From positions 1 to 64,000 of the forward strand of contig CANQMT010000012.1 in assembly GCA_947625055.1 (NCBI GenBank): a DNA stretch of 64,000 nucleotides, given 5' to 3'. The stretch comes from an uncultured Monoglobus sp. GTDB taxonomy: Bacteria; Bacillota; Clostridia; Monoglobales; Monoglobaceae. Position numbers and translations under genes: made by a program. Numbering within the stretch: the stretch's first letter is position 1; each line of letters begins with the position of its first letter. A model generated the notes under the pieces. It did no database searches, was not told the origin of the DNA, and saw only the letters and a program-made list of their open reading frames with translations. Shown one piece after another: positions 52,327-59,889 of the stretch.

Positions 52327-52373
52327 CATGTATATTAATAACTTTATAGGCAAAAATATATACGGTGATCAGT

Positions 52374-53873
52374 GTGATTAGCTCAAATATTTCCGAGAAC
52401 AAAAATAAAATTCGGGAAATGTTCAGACCGGACAGTAATATGGATTTTAATATGCGCGAGTTTCGGGTCGCTTTAGGGGATGAAAGCGCGGAGGCTTTTT
52501 TGATATATTATGACGGCATGACAAACCAGACATATTTGAACCGCGACATAATGAGATCGCTCCTCACTGCAGCAGTTCATGACGCGGACGGACGCGGCAG
52601 ACAGGCTGTCGTGACAGAGCGCATATTGTCCGTGGCTCCGCTTTCGATCATTAACGATTATTCCGAGGTGGGGCGTAAGGTCTCGTTCGGCGACTGCGCC
52701 GTGTTCGTTGACGGCTGCGGCTGCTGCTTTTCCGCCGATGTGAAAGGCTGGGACACACGCGGAGTAGACGCGCCGACTCAGGAAGTAAGCCTCGCCGGGC
52801 CGCAGGAGGCTTTCGCAGAATCGATAATGACAAATATCGCGCTGGTCAGAAAGATCCTGCGCACACCCGAGACGACCGCAGTGAACATTCCTGTCGGCAA
52901 CAGCAACAAAATACCGTGCGCCGTGATGTACATTAACAATATAGCAAATCATGAGATCGTGGACGAGGTCGTGCGCCGTCTTAAAGGAATAGACACGGAT
53001 TATATTTTTTCATCAAGCGACGTGGAAATGATGATCGAGGACTCGACATACTTTCCTATGACGCGCACGCTTAAAACCGAGCGCCCCGACAGAGTCGCGG
53101 CGATGCTCGCCGACGGCAAGGTCGCGGTGATCGTTCAGGGAAGCCCGTTCGCTCTCATTCTGCCGACCACAACGATGGATCTGATCGAGGCAACCGAGGA
53201 TAACTACGTGCGAGTCCCCGAGGCAAATCTGATGAGGTTGGTCCGTTTGTTCGGAATGGCAGTCTCGGTCCTGCTGCCGTCGCTGTTTATCGCGGTGATG
53301 CTCTATCATCAGGAAGTGATACCGACCGATCTGCTTATAGCGATCTCCGCGACCCGTGAAAAAGTGCCGTTTCCGCTGATCGCGGAACTGCTGCTCATGG
53401 AGCTCGCGTTTGAACTGATAAAGGAAGCGTCGGTCAGAGTGCCGAACCCGATCGGAAGCACGCTCGGAATTATCGGCGGCCTTATTTTGGGTCAGGCCGC
53501 TGTTGAGGCCAGCATTGTGAGCCCGCTTCTCATAATAATCGTGTCGATAGGCGGGATCGGCGCGTTTTCGACTCCCACGCTCTCGCTGTCGCGCTCATTG
53601 AGCGTGCTCAAATTTATATATATTTTTGCCGCTTATTTTTTCGGCGTTTTGGGGCTGACGGCCGCGGTACTCGTTACGCTGAGTCTGCTCTCGCAGACGA
53701 CAACGTTCGGAGTGCCGTTTCTCAGCCGCTATAAGTCGGGCGGGGAAACATCCGAATCAGTGCTTGTAAAGCCGATCTGGAAAAAAGAAAAGCGGCCGCC
53801 CGAGCTTATGCCGCGGAAGGAAATAAAACAGCCAAAAATAAGCCGCAAGTGGAAATATGATGAAAACGAGTGA
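52374..53873 (+). CDS. gerA: Spore germination receptor A subunit (GerA family)
   Basis: 499-residue GerAA/GerBA/GerKA-type subunit of a nutrient germinant receptor in the spore inner membrane. The N-terminal soluble half (~1-270) is followed by several membrane segments (~275-450), with the family blocks RVPNPIGSTLGIIGGLILGQAAV and LPSLFIAVMLYHQEVIPTDLL, and a basic tail. The GTG at 52374 follows GGTGAT by four bases; a GTG nine bases earlier overlaps no ribosome site. The GerB-GerC fusion overlaps its 3' end by 17 bp. Expression is expected in the forespore, but I could not see a convincing sigma-G promoter. Confidence 0.9.
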   Translation: MISSNISENKNKIREMFRPDSNMDFNMREFRVALGDESAEAFLIYYDGMTNQTYLNRDIMRSLLTAAVHDADGRGRQAVVTERILSVAPLSIINDYSEVGRKVSFGDCAVFVDGCGCCFSADVKGWDTRGVDAPTQEVSLAGPQEAFAESIMTNIALVRKILRTPETTAVNIPVGNSNKIPCAVMYINNIANHEIVDEVVRRLKGIDTDYIFSSSDVEMMIEDSTYFPMTRTLKTERPDRVAAMLADGKVAVIVQGSPFALILPTTTMDLIEATEDNYVRVPEANLMRLVRLFGMAVSVLLPSLFIAVMLYHQEVIPTDLLIAISATREKVPFPLIAELLLMELAFELIKEASVRVPNPIGSTLGIIGGLILGQAAVEASIVSPLLIIIVSIGGIGAFSTPTLSLSRSLSVLKFIYIFAAYFFGVLGLTAAVLVTLSLLSQTTTFGVPFLSRYKSGGETSESVLVKPIWKKEKRPPELMPRKEIKQPKISRKWKYDENE

Positions 53874-55833
53874 TAAAAATATGAGCAAAATAAATTTTAA
53901 TTTATGCTGTCTTATAATAAACAGCATGATAGTCAAACTGTTTCTGGGCGGCTCCGCAGCCATTCTGCGCGAAAACGGTTCCGCGGCATGTCTCGTAATG
54001 GTCCTGAGCGCTGTGATTTTCGCCTTGATATGCGTTATCGCGCGGGCGGTCGGAAAGTCTGTCATAAAGATAATAGACGGAGAAAAGACCCAAAATATCG
54101 TTTCCGCGCTCTTGGCGGCATATTTTATCTGCGCGTCCGTCTATTTTGTCTATACATTCTCCGATGCGCTTTGCGGTCTGCCCTATATCGGAATTTCGCG
54201 TTTTTCGGTAATTGCTCTTATCCTGATATCGGTTTTTATCATTGCGCGCGGAGGAAAGGGGCCGTTGTTTGGGCTCTGCGGTCTGTGCGTTCCGGTGACG
54301 GTCGCGGGCCTTGCGGCGATAATACTGAACGCCTCGGGACGCTGCGATTTATTAAGAGCCGTGCCCGCGCTTGGCAGCGGCGCGGGAACAATTATTATCT
54401 CGGCCTTTAAAAATATTTTTTCGTTTTCCGAGATCCTGCTTCCGCTCTCGTATATGTTTGCTTTCGCCGAGGAACGTGGAAGCAAGGGCATTTTTCCTTC
54501 AATACTTATCGCTCTCGCGCTTTACACGGCGTATTTCGTCGTGCTCATGCTCTCCGTTCCGATGATCCCGGTCGCAGCAACCGACGGCGCGGATCTGACG
54601 CGGAGTATCGCAAGGTTTTCGGGAATGAACCGTCTGAACATGAGGCCGGATGCCGTTTATATAATAATTTCCGCCGCGTCCGCAATATTGTATCTTTCTG
54701 CGGCCGTGATAATAATAGGCAAACTGCTGAATAATATCGGAGCGCCAAAAAAATTTGCGTCAAAAAAGGCCGCGGTCCTGATCGCCGCGGTGTTGTCGGT
54801 GTTTTTGCTGAGCGGTTGCGGGGGCAAACGGGAGGTCGAAAACACGGCATATATTATAGCCGTGGGCATCGACGCATCGGACGAGGGCGGATATGATTTT
54901 ACGCTGCAATTTTCAAATCCTTTAAAGAGCGGTTCCGATACGGACGCTTCAGCGCCCGAGGAGGACGGAAATAATGAAGAAAAAGAGGAAGAGAAGCCGA
55001 CAAACAACCTAAGCTTGAGGGCGCCAAATATATTCGAGGCGGTCGAAGATTCAAAATCGTATCTCGGAAAGTCGCCCACACTCTCGCACCTTAAATTAAT
55101 AGTATTTTCGCGCGAAGTCCTGAAAAGCGGCGCGGCGGCGGAAATATGCGGCGGCTTTCTCGGCGCGGACGAGGTCAGGCCTGAAACAAAACTGTGCGCT
55201 GCGGAGTCGGCGAAGGAGTATTTGACTGAGGCAAAGCCCTCGCTTGAGGAAAGCACCGCCAGATATTATGAGCTGCTTTTTTCAAAACGATCTGCAACAG
55301 GCGGGCTTGAGACAAATCTGACCGACTTTTTCTCACGCGCCGCGGATGGCGGCACGGGCGCAGTCATGCCAATTGTTGCCAAAGACGGAATATGCGGCGG
55401 AATGGTGTTCAGCGGACCGTACCCGGCGGTGAGTTTGAGCTGCGACGAATGCAGACTTGTAAATCTTGCGCTCGGAAAAACGGATGAGGAACTTTTTTTC
55501 ACCACGGAAGGCGGAGCCTCATATTCGGCGGAAAGCAAAAGCCGCGGCTTTAAGACCGAAGCCTCGGATCATGAAATACGCGGAACTGCGGAGCTTTCTT
55601 TCAGTGTTTCCGCGAAAGGATCAAATGATGATCTCGCAGAGTGCGAGAACGATCTTGAACAAAAACTTCGCGCTGTCTTTGATAAAATTTACGCAGGCGG
55701 GGCCGATATTTTTGAATTCAAGAAACGTTCAAGGCTTGAGTTTACAACCGAAAAACAGTATCAGGAATACCAAAACAGCCGCCCGGAGATCAAGCTGAAA
55801 AAATTTTTTATAAAATTTATTCCCAAAATTTGA
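53857..55833 (+). CDS. Fused spore germination receptor: GerB permease plus GerC lipoprotein
   Basis: 658 residues in one frame. Residues ~10-320 are a GerAB-like APC permease with about nine to ten helices. The last helix reads as a complete lipoprotein signal: KK at 303-304, a hydrophobic run, then LLSGC with Cys321. Directly after it come GerAC-type sequences (ENTAYIIAVGIDASDEGGY at ~328, LSLRAPNIFEAVEDSKSYLG and SHLKLIVFSREVL) to residue 658. GerB and GerC are normally separate genes; no stop or usable start is found at the junction (nucleotides ~54745-54820). With gerA this single gene completes the three-part receptor. Confidence 0.88.
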   Translation: MMKTSDKNMSKINFNLCCLIINSMIVKLFLGGSAAILRENGSAACLVMVLSAVIFALICVIARAVGKSVIKIIDGEKTQNIVSALLAAYFICASVYFVYTFSDALCGLPYIGISRFSVIALILISVFIIARGGKGPLFGLCGLCVPVTVAGLAAIILNASGRCDLLRAVPALGSGAGTIIISAFKNIFSFSEILLPLSYMFAFAEERGSKGIFPSILIALALYTAYFVVLMLSVPMIPVAATDGADLTRSIARFSGMNRLNMRPDAVYIIISAASAILYLSAAVIIIGKLLNNIGAPKKFASKKAAVLIAAVLSVFLLSGCGGKREVENTAYIIAVGIDASDEGGYDFTLQFSNPLKSGSDTDASAPEEDGNNEEKEEEKPTNNLSLRAPNIFEAVEDSKSYLGKSPTLSHLKLIVFSREVLKSGAAAEICGGFLGADEVRPETKLCAAESAKEYLTEAKPSLEESTARYYELLFSKRSATGGLETNLTDFFSRAADGGTGAVMPIVAKDGICGGMVFSGPYPAVSLSCDECRLVNLALGKTDEELFFTTEGGASYSAESKSRGFKTEASDHEIRGTAELSFSVSAKGSNDDLAECENDLEQKLRAVFDKIYAGGADIFEFKKRSRLEFTTEKQYQEYQNSRPEIKLKKFFIKFIPKI

Positions 55834-55902: not shown

Positions 55903-56187
55903 ATGAGAAAAGAAATCAGCAGAGAAATGGATATAACCGGAAGAATAGTTATACCCAAGGAGATCAGGACCGCCCTCAGGTTGGGCAAAAACGAAAATCC
56001 CGACAAACCGAATATGGAGACAGGGACCGTTAAGGTCGATATGTACGTCGAAGACGACAAGCTGATAATCAAGCGCAAAAATCCGTCGTGCGTTTTTTGC
56101 GGGACCGAGGATGATCTTGCCGTAAGCTACAGAAACGGACACATCTGTAAATACTGTCTCAATGAGATCAAAAAGCTTGAGAAATAG
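55903..56187 (+). CDS. AbrB/SpoVT-type transcription regulator with zinc-ribbon tail
   Basis: 94 residues. The N-terminal swapped-hairpin DNA-binding domain reads MDITGRIVIPKEIRTALRL, near the AbrB/MazE/SpoVT consensus. A C-terminal CVFCGTEDDL ... ICKYCLNEI gives two CxxC pairs, likely a zinc ribbon, as in some clostridial AbrB-like proteins. TAGGAGG precedes the ATG. It follows the ger genes but has its own vegetative-type promoter; sporulation or transition-state control is inferred from family. Confidence 0.88.
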   Translation: MRKEISREMDITGRIVIPKEIRTALRLGKNENPDKPNMETGTVKVDMYVEDDKLIIKRKNPSCVFCGTEDDLAVSYRNGHICKYCLNEIKKLEK

Positions 56188-56388: not shown

Positions 56389-59300
56389 TTATTTCATGTT
56401 GGTGTAAGGCGCGAGAGTTCCGTTTGACCAGAGGAAGAATCTTACATCTGTATAATCCTTGTCAAATGTCATATCGCTGACGGTGTAATCCGAGTCGGAC
56501 ATTGGGATCTCGGCGGTCTTTGCGTCTGCCAAAACTCCGTTTTCATACGCGGCGGCTATAAACAGAGCGCCGCCCTGCTCGCCGGCGTTCTTTATTGTCG
56601 CGATGACTGTTCTGCCGTCCATGACCGGCCCGCTCACATAATAGACACTGTCGCTTGAAAACTCTTTTTCAAGCCTCATGTTGGCGAAGTATGTGGGGTC
56701 GGCGGTCTTTACCAGTCGAATCGAGCGGAGGGTCGTATCTCTGCCTTCAATGCTGCCGATAGTCGTCGTGCCGAGAATCGTGCCGTCCTTCTTTGAGGCG
56801 GTCATTGTGATAAACTCGTCGGTCCCGGCCTTTGAATAGTCTATCTTTGTGTCAAAGTGTACCCATCCGCTGCCGCCTATCTGATCGTATGTTATAAACG
56901 GATTGGCTCGGTCGTCAAGGGCGGGACCCTTGTTGATCTGATTGTTCGCGTTGTTGATTATCTCGGCAAACACATTATCGCCGTTCTGCCAGTTTCCGGC
57001 CTTGTTCTCGAAATAAACCCTAAAGCTGCGCGCGACGTCTTTGTCAACATAAACGTCGAAGTTAAAGTCCACAACTCCGTCGTTATAAGGTTCCGTGAGC
57101 TCCCGATACACGTTGAACGTCTCAACATAGAGCGCGGCCTTGCCGTCCTTATAAACAACGTCGTTGGTGCTCAGCGCCCCGTTCTCGGTGGAAGCTCCGT
57201 CCTTCCATACGTCGTACTGTTCGGCGATATACGGTTCGACTGTGGGCGCGGGAGTGGCGGTAGGCTCGGGCGTGGGCAGTCCCGCGAAGTTGGACTTGTT
57301 GTCAAGCTTCAGATCGCTGAAGCTCGCCATTGAGTAATACGCTTTGGGCGACGCGTCAGTCGGACCTTGATATGAGTCGATCGCGACGCCGACATACATC
57401 GTTTCGGGCAAGCCCTTGATATTCATGATATAGGGCTGTCTGATATTGTCGGTATAGCTCTCGCCTCCGTTTGAAACCGAGAACACGAGGTTGTCGCCGT
57501 CGCGCTGGATCCTGAGATAGTTCGGAAGCTCGTGCGCCTCGCCGGGCAGCCAGTTGTAGCCCTTTTTGTTGCCGTCGTTATACTCGCCGAGCACGTTCGC
57601 CGAGATTACGCCGCCGTTTTTATCCTTAAAGAATATGCCTGTCTTCATATCAGTCGAGTTGGTCTCGTCGGGGTCGGTAGCAAGAGCGCCGCCCTTGGTG
57701 GTCCTTGCGACGATCCTGGGATTTCTGCCAAGTTTTATCCAGCCGTCAACCAGAGCCGCCGATACCGAGTTGGCGTCCAGAGTGCTGCGTACCATAAGTC
57801 CCATAACGGGGCCGTTCTCGTTGTCCATCATGTCCTGCATTTTGAATGAGATATCAAAATTGCCCGTTACCTGCTTATACATAAAGTTGCAATTGTCGCT
57901 CTTGCCGCCTATTTTTCCGCTGCCGCCGATCGTGTATATTCCGTTTTCGTCAACCGAGACCGCGCCGTTTCCGTATCCCGGCGAGCCGATATTTGCCATT
58001 TGCCAGCCCTCCGGAGCGTTGGTTCCGTTAACATATACGATTGAAGTGGTGCTGCGCGTGCTCTCGCCTGCGTCGTTGTACGCCATGCATGACAGATAGT
58101 GCTCGCCGATCTCAAGAGAGATAGTGTCGTCGATAGACGAGGCCCCGTCATATGTCTGGATCTTATTCGGGCCGTCCCACAATTCCATTTTGGTGATTGC
58201 AGTGCTTCCTACCGGCGAAGCCTGCGCTTTATAAGCCACGGTCTGCGTGTCGTTTATAACAGTCCACCTTCCGTTGTTGACGGTTGTGTCACCCACCTTA
58301 CCGCTTACCGAAGCGATGGCAGGGGATGTGACAACGATCTCGGGATTGGTCGGCAGCGTCGCACTCTGTTCCGCCGTCCAATCGTTCACATACGCCTCGA
58401 CCCATGTGTAGCCCGCGTTTGCGCCGCTTTGTATAATGTCCTCATCCTTTGCGTTTCCCATGCCGTTTGCGGTCTTCCAATCCGCGGGGATCTCAAAGGG
58501 GTTTTCAACAGTGTCAAATCCGCTGATGCCGCCGACCTCGTCAGAATTGTTGATTATTCTGCCTGTCCTGTTTTTCGCGTCGGCGATTATTCTCGCGTCG
58601 GTCGCGTCACGTTTGGGCAGCGTGGCTCCGATGCCGGGAAGTATAGCGTCCTTTACCTCGGCGGACGGAATAACCTTGCTGACGTTCAGATCGGGATAAA
58701 GCGCGTCGCCAAGCGAGAACGGCTCGCTCATTCTCTCGACCTGATTTGCGGCATTATTGACGGCTTTGCCCAGCCAGTTATCGGCGGTTACGTCGGGATA
58801 GCCGTCAACATAGTTGTTTTCCATATAAAATTGGCTCTTGTATGTAACGCCGTCAACTGTTTTTGCCAGATCCTTAAAATCATAAATTCTCGGCTTTCTG
58901 TCCTCGCGGGTGCTGGGGCCGAAGCTGTAATAATTGTTCGCGTAGTTGATCTTTGAGGGATTGAGCACCTGATTGTGCGGCGAGGTAGGCTCGCCGCCGT
59001 AGGCAGAGTTGGTAACTCCCCAGTTGTAGACCATGTTGTTCTGAATATCGGTCTTTTGCAGAGCGCGGTCAAGTCTGGGCGAGCGGCTGTCGTGGTGGGC
59101 GAACAGATTTCTGTAATATGTCGCGTTAGTTCCGCCTAAGATTCCGCCGTAGCCGTGCGCGCCCTTAAAGTGGCCCGAAAGCCTCATGCTTTCCGCTGTT
59201 ATCGTGTCCTGAACGGTGAGGCGCTGTCCCTGCTTGTAGGTGGCGTTCTCGGCGTTTCCGGCGTAGAGCGTCAGGCCTTCGTCAACGAACCAGCTCGTTG

Positions 59301-59889
59301 AGCAGTGGTCAATGATAACGTCCTGGTTCCACTGGCCGCCTATTCCGTCGGGCTCGCCGCCGTTCTTGTTGGTGGGACGGACGCGCATATAGCGGATAAT
59401 AACGTTCTTTCTGCCGTTGCCTATCCTCAGATCGCCGCCCGTCAGAGTAATGCCGTCGCCGGGAGCAGTCTGGCCGAGCAGAGTGATATTGTTTCGGTTG
59501 ATATAGAGCGTGTCGGGCACTTCGATAATGCCGCCCACGTCAAAAACAACGATCCTGCCGACTGTCTCGGAATCATCGCCGGTCGTCACGCCGTCGCCGA
59601 CCGCGTCGGCTAAGCTGCCGGGTCCGTCCGCGTCAAGGCTCGTAACATGGTAGACCTCAACCGTGCCGCCGGCGTCAAGAGCGCCTCTGGCACCTTTTGT
59701 GTACTTTCCGCCGCCCTCCGCGCCCGGGAACGCGGGCAGGGGATCAGGGACCGCCGTAGGAGACGGCTCGGGGGAAGCGGGAGCCTCGGTAGTATCCGGA
59801 GCAGCCTCGCCCTCGGCGATAGCCGGAGATACCCACAAAACCGAAATTGCCATACATAATACCAAAAACAATGATAAGGTTTTTTTCAT
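56389..59889 (-). CDS. Secreted multidomain pectate lyase (PL1-like)
   Basis: 1166 residues. Signal peptide ~1-25, then a Pro/Thr-rich spacer (~30-50). The lyase domain (~52-510) starts PAFPGAEGGGKYTKG, has the calcium-side block IIDHCSTSWFVDEG (~192-205) and the arginine segment DSRSPRLDR (267-275), as in pectate lyase family 1. An Ig/Big-like linker (~518-625), a concanavalin-like domain (~626-893) and a TPEPTATPAPTVEP linker lead to another beta domain (~910-1070). The last ~90 residues (SDSVYYVSGPVMDG to FFLWSNGTLAPYTN) are the C-terminal module shared with the secreted proteins at 16659 and 24700. No SLH repeat is visible, so it may be released. GGGAGGTAATGAA precedes the ATG. Confidence 0.88.
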   Translation of the reverse strand: MKKTLSLFLVLCMAISVLWVSPAIAEGEAAPDTTEAPASPEPSPTAVPDPLPAFPGAEGGGKYTKGARGALDAGGTVEVYHVTSLDADGPGSLADAVGDGVTTGDDSETVGRIVVFDVGGIIEVPDTLYINRNNITLLGQTAPGDGITLTGGDLRIGNGRKNVIIRYMRVRPTNKNGGEPDGIGGQWNQDVIIDHCSTSWFVDEGLTLYAGNAENATYKQGQRLTVQDTITAESMRLSGHFKGAHGYGGILGGTNATYYRNLFAHHDSRSPRLDRALQKTDIQNNMVYNWGVTNSAYGGEPTSPHNQVLNPSKINYANNYYSFGPSTREDRKPRIYDFKDLAKTVDGVTYKSQFYMENNYVDGYPDVTADNWLGKAVNNAANQVERMSEPFSLGDALYPDLNVSKVIPSAEVKDAILPGIGATLPKRDATDARIIADAKNRTGRIINNSDEVGGISGFDTVENPFEIPADWKTANGMGNAKDEDIIQSGANAGYTWVEAYVNDWTAEQSATLPTNPEIVVTSPAIASVSGKVGDTTVNNGRWTVINDTQTVAYKAQASPVGSTAITKMELWDGPNKIQTYDGASSIDDTISLEIGEHYLSCMAYNDAGESTRSTTSIVYVNGTNAPEGWQMANIGSPGYGNGAVSVDENGIYTIGGSGKIGGKSDNCNFMYKQVTGNFDISFKMQDMMDNENGPVMGLMVRSTLDANSVSAALVDGWIKLGRNPRIVARTTKGGALATDPDETNSTDMKTGIFFKDKNGGVISANVLGEYNDGNKKGYNWLPGEAHELPNYLRIQRDGDNLVFSVSNGGESYTDNIRQPYIMNIKGLPETMYVGVAIDSYQGPTDASPKAYYSMASFSDLKLDNKSNFAGLPTPEPTATPAPTVEPYIAEQYDVWKDGASTENGALSTNDVVYKDGKAALYVETFNVYRELTEPYNDGVVDFNFDVYVDKDVARSFRVYFENKAGNWQNGDNVFAEIINNANNQINKGPALDDRANPFITYDQIGGSGWVHFDTKIDYSKAGTDEFITMTASKKDGTILGTTTIGSIEGRDTTLRSIRLVKTADPTYFANMRLEKEFSSDSVYYVSGPVMDGRTVIATIKNAGEQGGALFIAAAYENGVLADAKTAEIPMSDSDYTVSDMTFDKDYTDVRFFLWSNGTLAPYTNMK

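Follow-up and report, generated by a model that had tools for sequence, protein, structure and literature searches.

In an uncultured Monoglobus species, the GerB permease and the GerC subunit of a GerA-type germinant receptor are encoded by one uninterrupted frame of 658 codons (positions 53857-55833, plus strand, of the window, that is, the whole stretch of 64,000 nucleotides that we analysed), and a lipobox lies inside the predicted chain. We propose, with a probability of about 0.6, that the product is a natural precursor of two receptor subunits that would be lipidated by Lgt at Cys321 and cut by LspA between residues 320 and 321, to yield GerB and a lipid-anchored GerC in a 1:1 ratio.

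The fused gene and its neighbours

The gerA subunit gene (52365-53873, plus strand; 502 aa; Pfam PF03323, E 4e-146) comes first, as it does in relatives, and its 3' end overlaps the start of the fused gerB-gerC gene by 17 nt. An alternative start, the ATG at 53881 (residue 9), is close to the start in most genus-mates, and the true start may be this codon rather than 53857. A by-eye look for a sigma-G promoter upstream of gerA gave no clear site. The permease part (residues 14-293; 53896-54735, plus strand) comprises eight predicted transmembrane (TM) helices of the LeuT/APC fold, as indicated by the Spore_permease profile PF03845, by the AlphaFold2 model and by structural matches to AdiC, ApcT and LeuT. 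PF03845 matches residues 16-295 with an E-value of 2e-4 and 20.8 bits, just under the curated cut-off of 23.4, and scores 69 bits (L096) and 38 bits (L034) in fused relatives, both above this cut-off. The internal lipoprotein signal helix that follows (residues 303-320; 54763-54816, plus strand) opens on K303-K304, has a core of the same length as in split GerC, and ends in the lipobox Leu-Ser-Gly-Cys (residues 318-321; 54808-54819, plus strand), with the predicted cut between nucleotides 54816 and 54817. From Cys321 onwards extends the GerC domain, the predicted mature lipoprotein of 338 aa (54817-55833, plus strand), which is matched by Spore_GerAC_N PF25198 (residues 324-508, E 8e-27) and by the NCBIfam profile Ger(x)C TIGR02887 (residues 307-632, E 2.5e-27, under its whole-protein cut-off), and is related to the solved GerBC 3n54 (E 9e-7). 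A second cysteine of this domain, residue 447 (55195-55197), is invariant in all 20 fused chains of the family. Both the open reading frame and the profile matches agree with the initial annotation, which had described an uninterrupted frame joining an APC-type GerB to a GerC-like domain, and its two lysines, hydrophobic core and LSGC with Cys321 are likewise found. An adjacent GerA subunit, a GerB permease domain and a GerC domain, as expected of a GerA-type receptor, are all present, but not as three separate genes, given that gerB and gerC form one frame in 20 genomes of the family.

Two further genes lie next to the receptor operon. Right after gerBC, positions 55903-56187 (plus strand) encode a protein of 94 aa, possibly a regulator, whose N-terminus is AbrB/MazE-like and whose C-terminus carries CxxC-CxxC, and on the minus strand (56389-59889) lies the gene for a secreted protein of 1166 aa that has no Pfam match at E 1e-3 and that, judged by eye, could be a pectate-lyase-like enzyme.

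Distribution in the Monoglobaceae and beyond

Monoglobus and its relatives are anaerobic bacteria, mainly from the animal gut. Among 38 genomes of the family that we surveyed, 34 have one GerC each above the cut-off, and this GerC is fused to GerB in all 11 hit-bearing genomes of the genus Monoglobus as well as in nine genomes of three sister genera (five of five in g6, the one in g7, Candidatus Roslinia, and three of three in g8), whereas the two genes are split in genera g2, g3, g4, g5 and g9. The 20 fused chains, which share 24-64% identity, include those of the closed 2.76-Mb genome G008, from the same genus as the window, and of an isolate in g8, Ructibacterium gallinarum DSM 107454, a species placed in the GTDB family Monoglobaceae by its describers (PMC8269260). 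In the genome of the window and in the other fused genomes of the family, the fused gene is the only GerC-like gene detected. A search for the same fusion in related genomes, the check that the initial annotation had proposed, thus returns it from all 20 hit-bearing genomes of four genera: far from being peculiar to one genome, the design is fixed in these genera, and comparable fusions evolved on at least two other occasions.

Could all these fusions nevertheless stem from a single event? On the GerA tree, the gerB-gerC fusion must have been gained three times or more, so that a single shared origin is rejected. In G040, a member of another family of the same order, a frame of 799 codons in the order gerBC-gerA encodes the full set of ten GerB helices and, after them, a signal with LTGC. 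The class survey (216 genomes) contains, among the matches listed, one further fused frame, of 751 codons and also with LTGC, in G224 of family f41. All 13 genomes of the genus of G224, closed genomes included, have one fused frame with a ten-helix GerB (739-763 aa; L114:3169-5424, L129-L140) next to several ordinary split receptors, the other GerC genes numbering two to eight. At the phylum level, no further fusion was detected among 299 genomes searched with the Monoglobaceae profile, although the threshold of E 1e-25 would miss divergent ones. The number of helices before the signal is even in all three lineages, eight in the Monoglobaceae and ten in the others, which gives the orientation needed for export by the signal. 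Furthermore, three independent fusions imply that GerB and GerC are close, correctly oriented partners.

Origin of the junction helix and loss of TM9-TM10

Is the junction helix a remnant of the permease or of the lipoprotein? The TIGR02887 profile, which spans 371 positions and includes the signal peptide, begins within this helix, at residue 307 in the window (profile position 4) and at residue 311 in R. gallinarum (profile position 2), and the matches to the GerB profiles stop at the join or close to it. By these profile matches, the junction helix is derived from the GerC lipoprotein signal and occupies the TM9 position of GerB; the earlier view of residues 303-321 as the last permease helix therefore has to be revised as regards origin, and a true GerB TM9 is rejected. 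In R. gallinarum, TIGR00912 can be stretched across the junction helix, to position 330 of 357, so this segment fits both roles.

In the alignment, the fused Monoglobaceae GerB ends after TM8, and its own TM9 and TM10, which follow TM8 in a ten-helix GerB, are absent. Among the split GerB proteins of the family, those of g9, g4 and g5 have ten helices (358-392 codons), those of g3 end after TM8 (299-300 codons), and those of g2 end after TM9 and are without TM10 (304 codons; L045:4288-5202, L112:3351-4265), apparently a truncation separate from that in g3. The fused Monoglobaceae form one clade in the GerA tree (support 100/97), with g3 as the sister group, although at a support of 82/77 that is not strong. 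Since the split GerB of this probable sister is already without TM9 and TM10, the loss of these helices probably preceded the fusion. The split GerC frame of g3 has a peculiarity of its own (L102:3950-4050, L103; also L041 and L042): no ATG, GTG or TTG precedes the signal peptide, and there is an apparent ATT start behind a good ribosome site (AAGGGGGTGA) that overlaps the stop codon of gerB; alternatively, there may be a +1 frameshift at CAT-TAA.

An AlphaFold2 model of the fused chain (18 sequences, pLDDT 78) consists of eight helices, a helix at 298-317 and the GerC domain. With Z-scores of 21-23.5, it aligns to residues 346 of AdiC, 339 of ApcT and 398 of LeuT, which correspond to the end of TM9, whereas a control, the ten-helix split GerB of a relative, aligns through TM10 (AdiC 386, ApcT 368, LeuT 432). 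The helices after TM7 fall at 264-293 and 298-317 in the fused model versus 264-295, 300-321 and 324-366 in the split control, so the spacing after TM8 is alike. With a pLDDT of 52-59 over 301-320, the model no more than suggests that the TM9 slot is filled by the 303-320 helix. TM1, 3, 6 and 8, the helices that form the germinant pocket in GerAB (PMC8617281), are all present in the fused Monoglobaceae GerB, and, according to a modelling study, TM9-TM10 are of minor importance to the remainder of the GerAB fold (PMC8038838).

Selection on the internal lipobox

The lipobox L-[ASC]-[GS]-C is present in all 20 chains of the family, with zero entropy at Leu318 (position -3) and Cys321 (+1), Gly or Ser at position 320 (-1; 0.4 bit), and Ala, Ser or Cys at position 319 (-2), where Cys (7 of 20 chains) is outside the textbook lipobox and is found in split GerC too. 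The mean entropy of the hydrophobic core (305-317) is 2.1 bits, compared with 2.0 for the permease. The lipobox codons differ synonymously (four Leu codons, two Cys codons), so the constraint acts on the protein. From the last charge to the Cys there are 13-19 residues in the fused chains and 13-17 in split GerC, with a median of 16 in both (p 0.16). A lipobox with invariant Leu and Cys, a drifting core and an uncharged stretch of unchanged length together indicate that this part of the chain is still a lipoprotein signal and was not turned into an ordinary TM helix. In the three lineages combined, all 34 fused chains keep L/F-x-[GS]-C, Phe being at -3 in one f41 chain. Thus, the invariant Cys after an n-region and an h-region that characterizes lipoproteins is found in 20 of 20 family chains and 34 of 34 overall, but the signal is not at the N-terminus, Cys321 lying well inside a chain of 658 residues.

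Fate of the fused chain

While a lipoprotein signal is embedded in the membrane, Lgt modifies the Cys of its lipobox, after which Lsp cleaves directly in front of this lipidated residue (PMC8048626). Under the precursor hypothesis, the first eight GerB helices would insert in the membrane and end in the cytosol; the GerC signal would insert inside-to-outside in the place of TM9 and take GerC across; Lgt would add diacylglycerol to Cys321, and LspA would then cut between Gly320 and Cys321. GerB would retain the spent signal as its last helix, and the released, lipid-anchored GerC would stay beside it at a fixed 1:1 ratio, both presumably assembling with GerA. This scenario is favoured because the lipobox is present in all 20 fused chains of the family, the signal has the length seen in split GerC, LspA is present (PF01252; E 1e-39 in G000, also in four relatives, i.e. 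five of five genomes tested) and the two independent fusions keep the lipobox. The initial annotation had left the choice between cutting by signal peptidase II, with release of a lipidated GerC, and a whole chain at 1:1; conservation now renders lipidation at Cys321 very probable and favours the cut, somewhat less firmly, while the notion that the design ties GerB to GerC is borne out by a conserved fusion with a functional-looking internal lipobox. We would give even odds to the full picture: a polytopic chain is cut internally by signal peptidase II, and the used signal, rather than being degraded, stays on to form helix nine of a LeuT-fold sensor devoid of its own last two helices. Several observations speak against cutting or lipidation: the Cys at -2 departs from the textbook lipobox, the helix, if packed as TM9, would still need access to the active sites of Lgt and LspA, and the model is of low confidence in just this segment. 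In favour of lipidation, normal germination of B. subtilis in response to nutrients depends on Lgt/GerF; on the other side, GerKC of this bacterium tolerates losing its lipid site, which makes lipidation dispensable in some cases (PMC11841064).

The main rival, which we regard as possible although unlikely, is a chain that stays whole but is lipidated at Cys321, so that the helix would serve as TM9 and tether, the lipid as a second anchor, and the 1:1 ratio would be that of one protein. Conservation for the sake of Lgt alone would leave much the same lipobox as conservation for cutting, and attachment of the helix that the model places in the TM9 slot would restore a ninth helix with no cut at all; however, Leu at -3 and a small residue at -1, both fixed, belong to the textbook form of a cleavable lipobox (PMC8048626), LspA is there, and the hydrophobic core still has signal-peptide length. 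A whole and unlipidated chain, with the helix as a mere membrane anchor and the Cys as a relic, appears very improbable: a ninth helix alone would anchor GerC, and the tolerance of GerKC fits such a state, yet a relic would drift, whereas Cys321 and Leu318 are invariant at 24-64% identity next to a varying core, and the independent fusions retain the Cys as well. Decay of the locus in a lineage that has ceased to sporulate, or else an assembly error, for either of which the permease score just under the Pfam cut-off might be adduced, is hardly credible: the same frame in 19 other genomes of the family, including the isolate and closed ones, excludes a slip, a lost stop or a frameshift in this assembly, and decay is rejected given the conserved frame, amino-acid-level selection at the junction, and SASP and SpoVAC/SpoVAEB genes in five of five genomes tested, which make a germination role of the fused receptor plausible. 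Additional production of GerC from an internal start codon is the least credible proposal and is rejected as a conserved mechanism, since an in-frame ATG, GTG or TTG between positions -34 and -12, counted from the Cys, is missing in 9 of the 20 family chains, including that of the window, and the in-frame ATGs near the signal in some chains (-19 in G008, -16 in G024) are without an evident ribosome site.

Implications

The fused chains would be natural substrates with which to ask whether a lipobox inside a polytopic protein can be used by Lgt and LspA, a question that bears on the prediction and counting of lipoproteins. They also offer covalent evidence on the GerB:GerC stoichiometry, namely 1:1, for a class of receptors whose oligomeric state, pentamer or hexamer, is debated, and show that TM9-TM10 of the LeuT fold are not indispensable to a germinant sensor.

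Comparison with known systems

In the part of the open-licence literature that we searched, we found no published description of a GerB-GerC fusion or of an internal lipobox; the parts are known, and what we have not found described is their arrangement: the internal lipobox, the signal in place of two lost LeuT-fold helices, and the recurrence. The receptor resembles GerAA-GerAB-GerAC of B. subtilis in its three families, in having gerA first, in the APC/LeuT-fold B subunit with a pocket of TM1/3/6/8 and in the lipobox of C, but differs in that B and C share one frame, B is without its own TM9-TM10, and the signal of C is internal. As in lipoproteins processed by Lgt and LspA, a positive n-region and an uncharged stretch of about 16 residues precede L-x-[GS]-C; unlike in these, the signal follows eight (or ten) membrane helices and is not N-terminal. 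A polytopic protein fused to an exported partner, with an internal signal that is cut, is also known in the cytochrome b-c1 precursor FbcH of Bradyrhizobium; there, however, the cut is made by signal peptidase I, no lipid is involved and, unlike in GerBC, the cytochrome b part keeps its helices. Finally, the best fold matches of the fused model include y+LAT and LAT1, and a parallel between GerAB/GerAC and heteromeric amino-acid transporters has been drawn (PMC8617281): in SLC7 with 4F2hc, too, a LeuT-fold permease is paired with an extracellular, single-anchor partner, but as two disulfide-linked chains with no lipobox.
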